Shown: positions 21,571-63,200, numbered from the stretch's first letter. The stretch: 64,000 nt of DNA from Deltaproteobacteria bacterium CSP1-8 (GCA_001443455.1 LDXO01000007.1:1-64000); one strand, 5' to 3'. The notes: generated from the sequence alone by a model not told the origin. Program-made: numbers and translations.

Positions 21571-21664
21571 TGGCGGAGAGGGAGGGATTCGAACCCTCGA
21601 GGCGGGGTTTAGCCACCTACGCGATTTCCAGTCGCGTTCCTTCGGCCAGCTCGGACACCTCTCC
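21571..21664 (-). tRNA. tRNA-Ser (anticodon GGA)
   Basis: On the minus strand the acceptor stem GGAGAGG pairs with CCTCTCC, followed by discriminator G and an encoded CCA. The anticodon loop is CTGGAAA, giving GGA. A long variable arm and the T arm GGGTTCGAATCCC complete a type II tRNA. Reads UCC and UCU codons. Confidence 0.93.
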
Positions 21665-21703
21665 GCGTTTCGGACCTGCTGCGACCCTTTTGGCGAAGGA
21701 GGG

Positions 21704-21796
<93 letters not shown>

Positions 21797-21804
21797 GGTC
21801 CATC

Positions 21805-21897
21805 GGGGACATTCCCAAGGGGGACATTCCTACCGGGGACACTCCTTATCTTATCGTCGAGAAACCCAGGAGTGTCCCCGCACATAGGAGTGTCCCC
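21805..21897. repeat. compound REP-like element family 1
   Basis: Three left arms (GGGGACATTCC at 21805 and 21820, GGGGACACTCC at 21835) are followed by two right arms (GGAGTGTCCCC at 21869 and 21887). This looks like nested or repeated insertion of the family 1 hairpin between two tRNA genes. Confidence 0.8.
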
Positions 21898-21905
21898 GCC
21901 CAATC

Positions 21906-21993
21906 TGGCGGAGGGAGTAGGATTTGAACCTACGGAAGCTTGCGCTTCAGCGGTTTTCAAGACCGCCGCCTTCAGCCGCTCGGCCATCCCTCC
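21906..21993 (-). tRNA. tRNA-Ser (anticodon TGA)
   Basis: Type II tRNA on the minus strand with acceptor GGAGGGA/TCCCTCC, anticodon loop CTTGAAA (anticodon TGA), variable arm and T arm (AGGTTCAAATCCT), and encoded CCA. Reads UCA, UCG and possibly other UCN codons. Confidence 0.93.
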
Positions 21994-23234: not shown

Positions 23235-23512
23235 CCCTGGCTCACCGGCCTCCAGAGATCCATTCCCTCAGATCCCGGCATTCGAGGGCCGCTGCATCCG
23301 CTCCGGCTTCGTTGCCTGCCCTCACCGTACCGCGGTGGGTACGCCTCGGTCAGGCGCCTCGCCGGAAGCAGCGCATCGACCCTCTCGGTGCACGGCCTCT
23401 TCAGGAACGGATCTCTGCAGGCCGGGGGTCCCCTTAGGCTACGCTCGCGACCTGCGTCCGCTCGCTGCCTGCGCTCATACGTTTGCGAAAAACCGGTGCC
23501 CCGGGTCCCCCC
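23235..23512. repeat. R1 plus R2 long repeat modules
   Basis: The block starting CCTGGCTCACCGGCCTCC and containing GGCATTCGAGGGCCGCTGC (R1) runs to about 23425 and is nearly identical to 51405-51598. It is followed by R2 (GGCTACGCTCGCGACCTGCG, then CCCGCTCGCTGC-like sequence), shared with 36.7, 51.6 and, inverted, 54.9 kb. No plausible gene lies between 23223 and 23583. Confidence 0.75.
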
Positions 23513-34333: not shown

Positions 34334-36622
34334 CTAGGCCAGCATCCCCAGCACCTCTTCCGCCGCCTCCCGCAGCATCTCTTCGTACTTCGCCAGATCA
34401 GGCGCCTCGCTGCCGTCCAGAAAACCCATCGCCCGGACGCATGGGGGGACATTCCTGGCTTTTGCGCGCAAGCCCCCGCAGGCGAGACCCCCCCCTTCCG
34501 TCAGCAGGTACCGGATCTTTGAGCCGGCGCGCAGCGTCACCCCCCGGCCGCACAGTTCCCGAGTGACCTCTGCGGCCGCGGTGCGGGTGACGTACCGCTC
34601 CGGCGCCTTGGACAGGCGCCGTGCGACGGCCAGCTCTTCCGGGGGGACGCGTCCCTCCCGCAGTTCGGCCGCCGCGGCGTCCACGGTCTCCCGCAGGGGA
34701 GGCAGCATCGCGCGCAGGGCGGGAAGGTCCGCCGCCGCAGCCATTGCCGCAAGGAGTCGCCGCTGGAGGGAGGCGACGAAGGGAGGGGTGTCGGTGCGGC
34801 GCATCGCGATCCCCCGCGCCTTGATCTCCCCGCCCGCGAACGCCCCGACGAACCGGTTCGGGACGGCGACGGAGGGGTTTTGCTTCGAAGGGAGGAAGGA
34901 GAGCCACCGGTAGACTCCCTCCAGCGCGATCGGCATCCCCGTTTCATCGGTGATGGTCTCGGCCAAGCGGCGGTACTCTTCTTCCGTCGCGCCGTCGCGC
35001 GCGACCCAGACGGCGTCGGTCAGGCCGTGCAGGAAGAAAAACCCCTCGCGCTCGGCGATCTCCTTGGCGCAGAGGAGCATCTCCCGCCCCCAGGCGGTGA
35101 CCGCCTCGTGCGCCTCGATCCGGCCGAACCGGGCGTTCTTGTATCCGAGGAACCCGAAGCAGACGACGAGGATCCACTTGAGCGCCGTCTGCCGCTTCCG
35201 GAAGACGTTGCGCTCCCCGGGGGTGGCGGCCGCCTTCTGGCGCTCCTTGAGGAGGTGCCGCTTCGCGAGGACGGGGGCAAGCATCCCGGGGATGAGCCCT
35301 CTCCGCCGGACGCACGTGTGGAAGCCAATCCCGGGGACAGGGAGGCCGGGGCAGCAGCAGCGGCAGTTGATCGTCTCCGGGGAGATGTTGTGCCGGTCCA
35401 TGAGGGACGGGTACATCGAGGCGAAGTCGAACTCGCCGACGTTTTCGTGCAGGCCGGGCCGGGGGAGGTAGGTGAGCCCCCCCTTGTCGGTCGCGACGAG
35501 CTCCGTCCCCGTCTTGAAGCCTTCCGGCTCCCGCTTCTTGTAGGGGACGAGGATCCCCCGCGAGAGCGCCGCCGCGACCTGCATCGCCGAGATGGCGGTC
35601 CCCGGCGACGAGCGGGCCAGGCGCTGCAGGGGGATGCCGGAAAGGCGGCAGAGTTCGATCAGGCCCGGGAGGCCGGTCTCCCCGAAGAGGAAGGAGTTGC
35701 GGGCGTCCACGTGCCACCGGCCGGAAAGGGTGTGCGCCGCGGCGCGGAAGACCACCCGGCCGTACGAGAAATACGACCGCTCGCGGGCGCGCCGGACGCC
35801 GCCTTTTTCCGGGCCCTTCCCCTCCCGCGCGCGGCGTGGCCGGGAACCGGCCGCCTCGCCCGGGGGGCGGGGGGTGCGTCCGAGGGAAAGCGGTGCGCCG
35901 AGCCTGGCGGCTAAGGCGAGCATCCTCGGCAGGATGTAGTCGTCGCCGTACTCCGTCACCAGCAGATCGGGGTCCGCCGCCTCGAGGAGCCGCAGGAACT
36001 CCCGGAGGAACCCCGCGCCGTCCTCCCAGCACAGGACGTGGGTCGTGCCGCCGGCCGAAAAGGCGAGCGGTTGCGTCCGCCCGTGCGCGGGGTGCCCCGT
36101 CCCTTCCGCTCGCAGCAACGCCCGGGAAAGCGGTGGGAGCGGCATGTCGACGTCCCACGGCGAGTAGAGAACCCGGGCGGAGAGGATCCTCCCATCCTCG
36201 GCGCACTCGACCTCGGCGAAGGAGAACGGGAAAAGCCCGGTGGCATAGGCGAACTGCTGCTCCGGGGCGATGTCGGCGTTTGCGAGCGCCTCCGGCCCGA
36301 ACGCGCTTTCCGCTTTCCCTACGGTTGCCCTGAGGAGGGAAGGCGCGGCGACGGCGAACGTCCATGCCGGGACCGTCCTCCCGGAGAAAAACTCTGTTCC
36401 CTCGCCCCGCTGGAGGCCGCACCTCCACCGTTCGGCTGCCGCGCGCACCGCCGCCTCCCGCACGCCCCGGCCCGCCACGACGAACGAGGGCCGGAAGGGG
36501 GCGAACAGGGTCACGGTGTCGCCCGCGGCCGTCCGGAACCAGATCTCCATCCCGTCCCGCGCGGGGAGGAGGTCGAGCACCCACCCGGTCAAATGCCCAG
36601 CGACGTGCCTACCGCGATTCAT
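34334..36622 (-). CDS. divergent B-family DNA polymerase
   Basis: The 762-residue protein has motif A DFASMYPSL with the catalytic aspartate at 399, a motif B region KWILVVCFGFLGYKNARFG (482-500) in which the usual N-S of K-x3-N-S-x-Y-G is V-V, and motif C HGLTDAVWV (532-540), which keeps only the second aspartate (D536) of Y-G-D-T-D-S. The N-terminal part has no clear exonuclease carboxylates; exo I is at best FAEVEC near 135. This suggests an active but non-proofreading enzyme, possibly for lesion bypass. ATG 36622 follows GGGAGG. It is the last gene of a lexA-led block, but an R2/R3 repeat separates it from the preceding gene. A GGGGGGACATTCCT stretch at 34443-34456, like a REP half-arm, lies in the coding region. 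Confidence 0.8.
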   Translation of the reverse strand: MNRGRHVAGHLTGWVLDLLPARDGMEIWFRTAAGDTVTLFAPFRPSFVVAGRGVREAAVRAAAERWRCGLQRGEGTEFFSGRTVPAWTFAVAAPSLLRATVGKAESAFGPEALANADIAPEQQFAYATGLFPFSFAEVECAEDGRILSARVLYSPWDVDMPLPPLSRALLRAEGTGHPAHGRTQPLAFSAGGTTHVLCWEDGAGFLREFLRLLEAADPDLLVTEYGDDYILPRMLALAARLGAPLSLGRTPRPPGEAAGSRPRRAREGKGPEKGGVRRARERSYFSYGRVVFRAAAHTLSGRWHVDARNSFLFGETGLPGLIELCRLSGIPLQRLARSSPGTAISAMQVAAALSRGILVPYKKREPEGFKTGTELVATDKGGLTYLPRPGLHENVGEFDFASMYPSLMDRHNISPETINCRCCCPGLPVPGIGFHTCVRRRGLIPGMLAPVLAKRHLLKERQKAAATPGERNVFRKRQTALKWILVVCFGFLGYKNARFGRIEAHEAVTAWGREMLLCAKEIAEREGFFFLHGLTDAVWVARDGATEEEYRRLAETITDETGMPIALEGVYRWLSFLPSKQNPSVAVPNRFVGAFAGGEIKARGIAMRRTDTPPFVASLQRRLLAAMAAAADLPALRAMLPPLRETVDAAAAELREGRVPPEELAVARRLSKAPERYVTRTAAAEVTRELCGRGVTLRAGSKIRYLLTEGGGLACGGLRAKARNVPPCVRAMGFLDGSEAPDLAKYEEMLREAAEEVLGMLA

Positions 36623-36679
36623 GTCCGCCTCCCGTCGCATTGCGCGCCCCGTCGGGAGAGTGCAGATGACCGGGGCCCC

Positions 36680-36940
36680 TGGCTCGCGGGGGCTTCCCCT
36701 CGGCTACGCTCGCGACCTTCGCCCGCTCGCTGCCGTTCCGCTCGCCGGACCAGCAACCTCGCTCCACAGGCCGCCTCGTGGAACCCTCCGCCTCGCCCCG
36801 GGTTCCCGGCTGCCGGCGCAGCGGCCGCAGGAGGAGGGCCGGAGTGAGGTAAAGCGCAGCCGTGCGGGTTTACCGCACGGCGAGCCACGAACGAAGGCCC
36901 CCTCCGAGGCTGCGGAGCCGTCCTCGGGTGCCCTGTCGAC
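36680..36940. repeat. R2 module followed by inverted R3 module
   Basis: GGCTCGCGGGGGCTTCCCC, CTACGCTCGCGACC and ACCTCGCTCCACAGGCCGC (R2) are followed by sequence that on the other strand matches R3 of 51.8 and 54.6 kb (TGCGGTAAACCCGCACGGC, GGAGGGGGCCTTCG). It fills the 346-bp gap between the small helical gene and the polymerase, apparently interrupting the operon. No gene recognized. Confidence 0.7.
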
Positions 36941-36968
36941 AGAAAACTCGATTGTGGCGGGAGGCGGG

Positions 36969-37262
36969 TCATGGCTCGTCCTCCGGCCGGCGGGAGAGGG
37001 CCTCGACCCGCTCCGCGAGGGCGGGGAGCCGGGCCGACAGCTCCCGGACCGCCCGGCGCTCCTCGAGGAGGATGCTCATCAGGATCGCCTCGAACGGGAC
37101 GGCGCGCCCCGAGCAGGTGCAGGCGGCGGTGTGGTACCGGGCCGCGGCGAACAGCTCGTCGAACATGGCGCGGTCCTCGCGGCGCAGCGCGCGCCGGTAG
37201 CTCTTCCATGACTCCTCCTCGCGGTACAGTTCCTGGGTGAAGGGGAGCACCGTGCGGCCCAT
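36969..37262 (-). CDS. small helical protein of the lexA-polymerase cassette
   Basis: A 97-residue, highly charged protein, starting MGRTVLPFTQELYREEESW and predicted almost wholly helical, with a C-terminal leucine-rich stretch (RELSARLPALAERVEALSR) that could form a coiled coil. A C-T-C pair lies at about residues 48-50. No known domain is recognized. Its place between the RecA-like and polymerase genes suggests an adaptor or regulator of the polymerase. The ATG at 37262 follows AAAGG by about 11 bases; a REP hairpin covers the upstream gap. Confidence 0.65.
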   Translation of the reverse strand: MGRTVLPFTQELYREEESWKSYRRALRREDRAMFDELFAAARYHTAACTCSGRAVPFEAILMSILLEERRAVRELSARLPALAERVEALSRRPEDEP

Positions 37263-37280
37263 ATTATGCTTTACCTTTCA

Positions 37281-37327
37281 GGGGGACATCTCCTTGGCTC
37301 AAGTCTTTCGTTGCAGGAGTGTCCCCC
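37281..37327. repeat. REP-like hairpin family 1
   Basis: GGGGGACATCTCCTT (37281-37295) and CAGGAGTGTCCCCC (37314-37327) flank an 18-base spacer. The right part encodes the last residues (W-R-G-T-L-L-Q-R-K-T) of the RecA-like protein on the minus strand, so the element replaced the original 3-prime end. Confidence 0.8.
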
Positions 37328-37943
37328 GCCAGAAGTCCCGCCATTCTTCCTCCTCCCGGCGCAGGAGAAGGCACGGGTCGGCGATCCGGACGAGGTGGCG
37401 GAAGAAGCCGACCCGGTTGCCGGGGAGCCCCGGGGCGTTGCCTTCCCCGACCAGCACCACCCGCGTCCCCCCCGCCGCGAGCCGGCGCAGCGAGGAAAGG
37501 CAACTCCGGAAGATCCGGCACGCCTCCGCGAAGGGGACGTCGGCGTCCGTGAACGTCTCCGGCAGGCCGAAGACGACCGCGATCCTTGCCCCCGAGCGGT
37601 CGAGGGCGGGGCCAAGCCGCCGCGCCAGGAGCGCCTCCATCTGGTGGCACGTGAAGGCGCGGGAGACGAGAATGCGGGAGAGCACCACCCTGCCGCTTCC
37701 CCCCAGCGCCCTCTCCGCCTTGCCGATCTCGTACGGGTCGAACCGATTTCCGCCGTCCACCGCCACCACGGGCTCTCCGGCCAGGAGGGGGCGGGCCAGC
37801 GCGCGCAGCGCCAGCCGGTGGGCTCCCGTTCCGAAGAAGCCGGCAAGTTTCCCCGGCGCGGGGCGCAGGCAAAGGGCGGAGGCGCGCTCGATCTCCGCGG
37901 CGGCAGGGAAGGCGGCTGGCGTATGGGGCGCGCGACCGGTCAA
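37299..37943 (-). CDS. RecA/ImuA-like protein without a P-loop
   Basis: The 214-residue product reads through a RecA-like order: FFGTGAHRLALRALARPLLA where a Walker A would sit but without the G-K-T/S, VVAVDGGNRFDPYEIGKAER (strand plus helix), IAVVFGLPETFTDADV, and RVVLVGEGNAPGL. ImuA proteins of SOS mutasomes are also RecA-like with a degenerate ATP site, so an ImuA-type partner role is plausible. A TTG at 37943 with GGGAGG five bases upstream is the best start, 17 bp after lexA. The start codon and family assignment are inferred. The C-terminus is formed by a REP. Confidence 0.65.
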   Translation of the reverse strand: MTGRAPHTPAAFPAAAEIERASALCLRPAPGKLAGFFGTGAHRLALRALARPLLAGEPVVAVDGGNRFDPYEIGKAERALGGSGRVVLSRILVSRAFTCHQMEALLARRLGPALDRSGARIAVVFGLPETFTDADVPFAEACRIFRSCLSSLRRLAAGGTRVVLVGEGNAPGLPGNRVGFFRHLVRIADPCLLLRREEEEWRDFWRGTLLQRKT

Positions 37944-37960
37944 GGCGGCCTCCCGGATTC

Positions 37961-38572
37961 CTACAGTTTCCGGAAAATGCCGACGACTTTCCCCGCGATC
38001 CGGAAGGACGGGGCGCCGTTCGGCACGTCGAGGGGGGCGTAGGCGGGGTTGGCCGGTTCGAGCCGGAGGCCCTCCTTTTGCCGGCGGATCCGCTTGACCG
38101 TGGCCTCCCCCTCGACGACGGCGACCACGATCTCCCCGTCCTCGGCGGTCTCCTGCGCCCGGACGAGGACGTAGTCCCCCTCGCAGATGTGGGCCCCCTC
38201 CATGCTGTCCCCCTTCACGCGGAGGGAGAAGATCTCCCCCTCCCCGGCCAGAAACGGGTCCAGGAGGAGCTCCTCCTCGACGAGTTCGACCGCCTCCCGG
38301 GGGCTCCCGGCGGGCACCCGTCCCAGTACCGGAACGCGCAGGAGGGCCGGAAGCGCCGCCTCCCCGAGGAACTCGATCCGGCGGGGGGATTTTCGGCGGC
38401 GGCGGATGTACCCCTTCCGCTCCAGCAACTCCAGGTAATAGAAGGCGTTTTTCTCGGCAATTCCGAAACGGCCCGCCACCTCCATCGCGGTGGGGGCGAA
38501 GGAGCGGGAGCGGGCGAACTCCCGGAGGAACTCGAGCACGCTGCGCTGCTTGTCGGTCAACGGTCTGTCCAT
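37961..38572 (-). CDS. lexA: LexA-type SOS repressor
   Basis: The 203-residue protein has the N-terminal winged-helix domain (LTDKQRSVLEFLREFARSRS, FAPTAMEVAGRFGIAEKNAF), a linker with the autocleavage-type AGSP near PVLGRVPAGSPREAV, and a C-terminal S24 protease domain with the catalytic serine in VKGDSMEGAHICEGD and lysine in GEATVKRI. RecA-ssDNA should trigger self-cleavage. The usual cleavage pair A-G is replaced in context by V-P-A-G, still A-G. The start overlaps a palindromic operator, so it is autoregulated and may be leaderless. It heads the polymerase cassette; a genome-wide LexA may exist elsewhere. Confidence 0.92.
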   Translation of the reverse strand: MDRPLTDKQRSVLEFLREFARSRSFAPTAMEVAGRFGIAEKNAFYYLELLERKGYIRRRRKSPRRIEFLGEAALPALLRVPVLGRVPAGSPREAVELVEEELLLDPFLAGEGEIFSLRVKGDSMEGAHICEGDYVLVRAQETAEDGEIVVAVVEGEATVKRIRRQKEGLRLEPANPAYAPLDVPNGAPSFRIAGKVVGIFRKL

Positions 38573-38598
38573 ATAGGTATGTTGACATACCTATATGG
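38569..38598. promoter_or_regulatory. palindromic LexA-type operator at the lexA start
   Basis: Two 13-bp arms, CATATAGGTATGT (38570-38582) and ACATACCTATATG (38585-38597), are perfect inverted repeats around TG; one more base pair extends each side. The left arm contains the lexA start codon on the minus strand. The core GGTATGT-TG-ACATACC resembles LexA boxes of the form GGT-N-ACC. No second copy was noticed in the window. Confidence 0.85.
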
Positions 38599-51404: not shown

Positions 51405-52010
51405 ACCCTGGCTCGCCGGCCTCCAGAGATCCATTCCCTCAGATCCCGGCATTCGAGGGCCGCTGCATCCGCGCCGGCTTCGTTGCCCGCCCTCACCGTA
51501 CCGCGGCGGGTACGCCTCGGCCGGGCGCCTCGCCGGACGGGGCGCATCGACCCTCTCGGTGCACGGCCTCTTCAGGAACGGACCTCTGGATGCCGGGGGG
51601 CTCCGTTATCAAACGGTCGCAATCTTCGCCCGCTCGCTGCCGTTCCGCTCGCCGCAAACCTAACCTCGCTCCACAGGCCGCTTCGTGGGACCCCCCGCAT
51701 CGCCTCGGGTCCCCGGTTGCGTTGCCGCGGTCTGCGGCGGAGCCTGTCCCTGGTGCCCTCGCAACAAGACGCAACCGGGGTTGCGCTGACTCAGAGGGGG
51801 GCCGCTCGCTTCGTCGCAAACGCCCCGGCTTGCGAGGCCCTGATCCGCTCCGCTGCCTTGGAGGGGGTCTTCGCTTCGTCGCTCGACGTGCGATACACCC
51901 GCACGTCTGCGCTCGCCCTTCCTCCCCGAAAAGCTCCGCTCACACCCCTCCTGCGGCTGCTGCGCGCTGTCGACCTCGCCAACGGGGGGGCAGGGGCCGG
52001 CTCCCCTCCT
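51405..52010. repeat. R1-R2-R3 mosaic repeat block
   Basis: R1 (51405-51598) is nearly identical to 23235-23425; R2 (about 51600-51720) contains CGCCCGCTCGCTGCCGTTCC and CCTCGCTCCACAGGCCGC; R3 (about 51805-51970) contains CTGCCTTGGAGGGGGTCTTC and CGATACACCCGCACGTCTGC, shared with 54.6 kb. Open frames here have no start signals and no domain. No gene called between 51397 and 52103. Confidence 0.75.
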
Positions 52011-54539: not shown

Positions 54540-55016
54540 TCCGCTCGCTCCGCAAATGCTTTGGATTGCGGGGCCTTAACCCGCTTCGCTGCCTTGGAGG
54601 GGGTCTTCGCTTCGTCGCTCGACGTGCGATGAACCCGCACGTCTGCGCTCCGGCCTCCAGGGGTCCATTCCCGGAAGATCCCGGCATTCGAGGGCCGCTG
54701 CATCCGCTCCGGCTTCGTTGCCCCCCTCACCGTACCGCAGTGGGTACGCTTTGGTCGAGCGCCTCGCCGGAAGCGGCGCATCGACCCTCTCGGTGCACGG
54801 CCTCTTCGGCAACGGACCCCTGGAGGCCGGCCTCACTTCGCCCCCCATCCTGCGGCTGTTGCGCTCTATACCGGGGGACCCGGGGCGACGCGGGGGGTTC
54901 CGCGAAGCGGCCTGTGGAGCGAGGAAGAAATCGCGTCGAGCGGAACCGGCAGCGAGCGGGCGCAGGTCGCGAGCGTAGCGGAAGCCCCCCGCGAGCCAGG
55001 GTCCCCGAGTTTCTCC
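54540..55016. repeat. R3-R1-inverted R2 mosaic repeat block
   Basis: R3 (about 54540-54655) and R1 (about 54656-54835) match 51.8 and 51.4 kb in the same orientation but in reversed order; R2 (about 54850-55016) is inverted (GAAGCGGCCTGTGGAGCGAG, CAGCGAGCGGGCGCAGGTCG). No gene called between 54342 and 55098. Confidence 0.75.
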
Positions 55017-63169: not shown

Positions 63170-63200
63170 CGCCCCTCCCGGGCCGCGGCCCGGGAGGGCG
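63170..63200. promoter_or_regulatory. long perfect palindrome in the FKBP 5-prime region
   Basis: CCTCCCGGGCCG followed by its exact complement (63174-63197) makes a 24-bp palindrome, extended to about 30 bp with one bulge. A TATACT box lies at 63142-63147 and the FKBP ATG at 63235. It could be an mRNA hairpin, an operator or a terminator for upstream transcription. Confidence 0.6.

Follow-up and report, generated by a model that had tools for sequence, protein, structure and literature searches.

A lexA-iRadA-PPB2-PolB2 cassette in a deltaproteobacterial genome, very probably a PolB2 mutasome operon under LexA control

Does a gene cassette that places a B-family DNA polymerase behind lexA represent a mutasome newly invented in parallel to ImuA-ImuB-DnaE2, or one of a kind already described? 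The question is raised by a stretch of 64,000 nucleotides from Deltaproteobacteria bacterium CSP1-8 (GCA_001443455.1 LDXO01000007.1:1-64000), here called the window, in which three consecutive tRNA genes are also found on the minus strand (21574-21993; Rfam). An earlier note, made from the sequence alone, had described four minus-strand genes in the order lexA, a RecA-like gene, a gene for a helical protein and a B-family polymerase gene, and had proposed a LexA-controlled B-family mutasome. All four genes were found at this place and in this order (Table 1). Their linkage is not new to the literature. PolB2, an inactivated RadA and arCOG07300 were described as linked in 2014 by Makarova and colleagues, with lexA in the same predicted operon in some bacteria, the four-gene example being LFML04_0990-0993 of Leptospirillum ferriphilum (PMC4104785). 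Timinskas and colleagues (2025) named iRadA and PPB2, modelled the complex as a pentamer and called the set a mutasome; the MGRT arm of PPB2, the loss of the first motif C Asp in PolB2, the iRadA-PPB2-PolB2 order of the bacterial genes and an enrichment of lexA are given in the same work (PMC11791011). The gene set in the window is of this published kind, a bacterial copy of the archaeal-type PolB2-iRadA-PPB2 damage-tolerance module, set under LexA. A new parallel invention was set aside, since the module is known and has been described as an archaeal one that was passed to bacteria. The proposed LexA-controlled mutasome is supported and corresponds to the published reading (PMC11791011, PMC4104785). 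The cassette is therefore very probably a LexA-controlled PolB2 mutasome operon of the bacterial type. The four genes, their order and the predicted operator with its conservation are established at the level of sequence.

Table 1. Features of the cassette and of the gap between PPB2 and PolB2, in window coordinates
Feature	Position	Strand	Basis or remark
lexA-iRadA-PPB2-PolB2 cassette	34334-38598	minus	four genes in that order, operator at the lexA end
PolB2, B-family DNA polymerase, 762 aa	34334-36622	minus	PF00136 E 1.2e-31; motif A DFASMYPS, motif C LTD
Dispersed GC-rich (75%) repeat, ~250 bp	36670-36918	minus	in the PPB2-PolB2 gap; outside the mutasome proper
PPB2 (arCOG07300-type), 97 aa	36969-37262	minus	begins MGRT; aligned homologues and all-helix model
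iRadA, RadA/Rad51-like, 214 aa, TTG start	37299-37943	minus	profile against PDB and AlphaFold2/Foldseek; P-loop lysine missing
lexA, SOS repressor, 203 aa	37961-38572	minus	TIGR00498 176.9 bits (cut-off 110.95); Peptidase_S24 E 1.7e-30
Predicted LexA operator	38569-38598	none	perfect inverted repeat CCATATAGGTATGT-N2-ACATACCTATATGG; overlaps the lexA start codon

As a single query, the 214-aa protein gave no match in Pfam or NCBIfam. A profile built from 24 iRadA homologues identified RadA in the PDB (5l8v, E 1.8e-10), and the AlphaFold2 model (pLDDT 89.5, pTM 0.86) led in Foldseek to RadA/Rad51 structures (E 8.6e-10, TM 0.67). No Walker A GK[ST] was seen at the P-loop in the aligned iRadA homologues. 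The predicted RecA-like fold lacking the Walker A lysine was thus recovered, and the protein has the hallmark of iRadA, a RadA/Rad51 core without ATPase residues and without the N-terminal domain.

The 97-aa protein is all-helical in structure prediction, as had been noticed before. Its N-terminus MGRTV is invariant among 17 aligned homologues, and the MGRT motif is the conserved arm of PPB2 (PMC11791011). The structure search returned no significant relative of PPB2, and the Pfam search no Y-family match. In the published model PPB2 forms a trimer whose N-terminal arm extends to the polymerase active site (PMC11791011); by these models the arm would be more like UmuD' than like a clamp adaptor of the ImuB type. 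The ImuB-like adaptor role that the earlier note had given to the helical protein is unsupported, the protein being PPB2 with a published role as an arm into the polymerase. In a simple pattern scan of the three proteins, the only beta-clamp motif seen was an internal QPLAF in PolB2; there was none in iRadA, none in PPB2 and none at the C-terminus of PolB2. Such a motif is not obligatory for membership, because only a fraction of the bacterial PolB2 operons have one in iRadA or PolB2.

These protein identities bear on the idea that the cassette is a polymerase-swapped variant of ImuA-ImuB-DnaE2, with the 214-aa protein as a diverged ImuA and the helical protein standing in for ImuB. Both modules share the position behind lexA, and one member of the host's family (G152) carries lexA-imuA-imuB-dnaE2 (L144 4244-10605) and no PolB2, its ImuA reaching 208 bits with the ImuA model NF033429 and its DnaE2 1511 bits. 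However, the 214-aa protein misses this ImuA model and is RadA-like in both profile and fold, so that its identification as ImuA or as an ImuA counterpart was rejected, and PPB2 is without a Y-family match. In the LexA tree, G152 forms a long separate branch, whereas those LexA proteins of the family that are linked to a cassette cluster with one another; therefore, the two modules look independently acquired. Descent of the cassette from ImuA-ImuB-DnaE2 by a change of polymerase is extremely improbable on these grounds. It appears instead that the PolB2 and ImuABC mutasomes can occupy the same place behind lexA, each with its own LexA. Of the parallel design to imuABC proposed before, this shared place stands, as G152 illustrates, and the new invention does not. 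The genome G159, in which PolB2 and PPB2 are both absent, retains a LexA of the cassette type. Before lexA of G152 lies a different candidate operator, ACTGTATATACATACAGT. In the window's own genome, which is 79% complete, neither an IMS domain nor DnaE2 was found, and the cassette itself holds neither a Y-family-like ImuB nor a C-family DnaE2. A mutual exclusion of PolB2 and DnaE2 across a phylum sample of 148 genomes was also considered and dropped: they occur in 21 and 6 genomes with zero overlap, where an overlap of 0.85 is expected, and the difference is not significant.

The divergent B-family polymerase seen at the end of the cassette was confirmed by its Pfam match and by its best relatives in the PDB, which are archaeal family B polymerases. 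With the model NF004416 it scores 355 bits, under the cut-off of 516. In motif C, LTD stands in place of DTD, so that the first Asp is substituted; the homologues have LTD, ITD, LVD or IVD, mostly with Leu or Ile for this Asp. The ExoII region reads TEYGDDYILP compared to TYNGDNFDFA in an archaeal PolB, and its Asn and second Asp appear lost, while ExoI was unalignable by pairwise search. The replaced Asp and the lost ExoII residues are in line with the older view of an inactivated polymerase (PMC4104785), in which PolB2 would be catalytically dead and the operon would encode a complex with a structural or regulatory task at stalled forks. Against this, D399 of motif A and D536, the second Asp of motif C, are invariant in an alignment of 15 PolB2 sequences. 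Moreover, Sulfolobus Dpo2, the studied PolB2, has its first motif C Asp likewise replaced (PMC11791011) and is nevertheless an exonuclease-free extender polymerase with robust activity (PMC8764526), damage-inducible and responsible for targeted mutagenesis (PMC7390963). A dead PolB2 is therefore very unlikely. Because the first Asp of motif C is lost, the activity of the bacterial PolB2 is taken over from archaeal Dpo2, by analogy with which we assume it.

Some PolB2 genes of other loci (L047, L044, L046, L049 and L050) carry in-frame, Pro/Gly-rich inserts of up to ~70 residues, e.g., NPSPLAGEGKGEGE. They are placed either in the stretch from motif A to motif B or shortly behind motif C and look like translated repeat elements within loops of the polymerase.

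The neighbourhood of the four genes is conserved. True PolB2, defined by E below 1e-60, is present in 21 of the 148 genomes of the phylum sample; in the host's family, 19 of the 24 genomes have PolB2. Apart from the window's genome, 11 of the phylum sample have lexA-iRadA-PPB2-PolB2 in order within the fetched stretches. A broader set of 80 named loci from Deltaproteobacteria, Nitrospirota, Chloroflexi, Rokubacteria, Armatimonadetes, Acidobacteria and others shows the four genes in order in 35 cases and iRadA-PPB2-PolB2 in a further 31. The order of the latter three genes is thus kept at 66 of 80 loci and is never any other; most of the remaining loci start near a contig end. Four family members without PolB2 (G152, G153, G159 and G164) lack PPB2 as well. 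Two outcomes that would have refuted the earlier note, a neighbourhood not conserved in relatives and a 214-residue protein with no RecA-like fold, were thus not borne out.

At the lexA end of the cassette, the predicted operator consists of two arms of 14 bp with a spacer of 2 bp and covers the lexA ATG, which agrees with the operator that the earlier note had seen on the start codon. Among perfect inverted repeats with spacers of 0-4 bases, none in the window is longer. The second longest, CCCTCCCGGGCCGCGGCCCGGGAGGG, lies at 63173-63198 and has arms of 13 bp and no spacer. The core of the operator, GGTATGTNNACATACC (38576-38591), was searched against the 24 genomes of the host's family. With at most one mismatch, 11 sites were found, and 11 of 11 are located at cassette genes, compared to a chance expectation of ~2.9 sites anywhere in that much DNA (65% G+C). 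A chance repeat at the start of lexA is ruled out by this recurrence across the family. In the window's own genome, two further matches with two mismatches occur on the contigs C1 and C13; the one on C13 lies within an open reading frame and the one on C1 not clearly at a gene start. The same genome, 79% complete, has a single LexA match, that of the cassette. No LexA operator was found at recA in 20 genomes, where the best matches have 5-7 mismatches.

Several relatives outside the family have, upstream of lexA, a TTGACA box and, ~17 bases from it, a TATA-like box; in some of them these lie immediately 5' of the lexA ATG. Boxes at this position suggest a leaderless transcript, with the repressor presumably sitting across the promoter. 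The operator evidence is apparently a modest new element, as it was not found in the open-licence literature, the only literature that could be searched.

The operator could also belong to lexA alone, LexA being a mere neighbour and the polymerase genes having their own constitutive or damage-independent promoters. Autoregulation by itself would keep the repeat, and the repeat element in the PPB2-PolB2 gap of the genus points the same way. However, an iRadA-PPB2 pair or a PolB2 gene that stands apart from lexA has an operator copy of its own. In the split cassette of G154, one site each precedes lexA (three mismatches), iRadA-PPB2 and PolB2; in those of G155 and G160, lexA and PolB2 each have one. 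In G064, lexA with its operator lies directly 5' of PolB2, and iRadA-PPB2 is encoded on the other strand at a distance of ~6 kb, preceded by a lexA stub (L031 15400-16001). The stub comprises 27 N-terminal codons, followed by an internal deletion and a frame shift, and still retains an operator-like site with three mismatches despite its wrecked coding part. This arrangement looks like a duplication of the cassette with subsequent reciprocal loss. In the split genes, the ATG is again located inside the site or immediately after it. The parsimonious reading of the re-used operator is that selection has kept every part under LexA control, and a LexA without a hold on the polymerase genes is very unlikely. 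Another type of split is found on contig C222 of G142 (L038, L253), where PPB2 and PolB2 share a strand but are ~10 kb apart, PPB2 being the upstream gene.

The gap of 330 bp between PPB2 and PolB2 is occupied by a dispersed repeat. The own genome contains at least 47 matches to it, and each of the other four genomes of the genus contains many. Partial copies are located in the window at 54831-55007, 51613-51720 and 23421-23469, and smaller modules (query ~53-155 and ~162-303) are found alone. A structured RNA in the gap was set aside in favour of this repeat: there was no Rfam match, and the fold is not clearly above shuffled sequences (z -1.25). The repeat might weaken the co-transcription of PolB2. 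In several other members of the family, the PPB2-PolB2 gap comprises only tens of bp.

A further reading of the operator data can be put forward tentatively for the host's family. LexA might be a private switch of the mutasome, with the strict operator only at cassette genes and absent at recA, so that the SOS response would amount to induced mutagenesis. Operator, promoter and start codon might then form one possibly leaderless cartridge, copied before iRadA or PolB2 at each split of the cassette. We regard this as possible, with the balance somewhat against it.

For the operon itself, the following course of events can be assumed. As long as the cell is undamaged, LexA dimers bound to the operator would cover promoter and start codon and repress lexA-iRadA-PPB2-PolB2. 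After DNA damage, RecA would be activated, LexA would cleave itself and the operon would be expressed. If the models published for relatives apply, a single PolB2, a single iRadA and three PPB2 subunits would assemble into a complex. In it, PolB2 would contact iRadA in the manner of neighbouring RadA subunits, and an N-terminal MGRT arm of PPB2 would enter the polymerase active site. By analogy with Sulfolobus Dpo2, this complex may extend distorted primer ends past lesions without proofreading, so that survival is bought with mutations. The outcome in the host bacterium would be SOS mutagenesis after LexA cleavage.

In the literature consulted, bacterial PolB2 mutasomes are proposed from genome context and models only. 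The operator evidence links every part of the module to LexA and supplies a short DNA site which can be tested. It also points to a family in which the place behind lexA is taken by a PolB2 cassette or by an ImuABC cassette. SOS mutagenesis by a second route, with a B-family enzyme, would thereby become testable in bacteria.

Among the known systems, the bacterial four-gene operon, e.g., that of Leptospirillum ferriphilum, is closest, with the same genes in a consistent order (PMC4104785, PMC11791011), and nothing essential differs between the window and an operon of this type. With the bacterial PolB2 operons in general, the window shares the MGRT arm of PPB2, the lost first Asp of motif C and an iRadA without P-loop (PMC11791011). 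Particular to the window are the deltaproteobacterial host, the repeat between PPB2 and PolB2, and proteins in which no C-terminal clamp motif was found. The Dpo2/PolB2 operon of Sulfolobus likewise combines genes for PolB2, a RadA-like protein and PPB2 and is damage-inducible (PMC7390963, PMC8764526), but it is archaeal and without LexA. ImuA-ImuB-DnaE2 resembles the cassette as an operon that is led by lexA and combines a RecA-fold protein with an error-prone polymerase, and differs in its C-family polymerase and Y-family-like ImuB. In Escherichia coli, LexA-controlled translesion synthesis is carried out by Pol V (UmuD'2C-RecA) and Pol II. Pol V is similar to the cassette in joining a RecA-fold protein and a small subunit, but it is a Y-family enzyme with an active RecA, whereas Pol II shares the B-family polymerase and differs as a single subunit with active proofreading.
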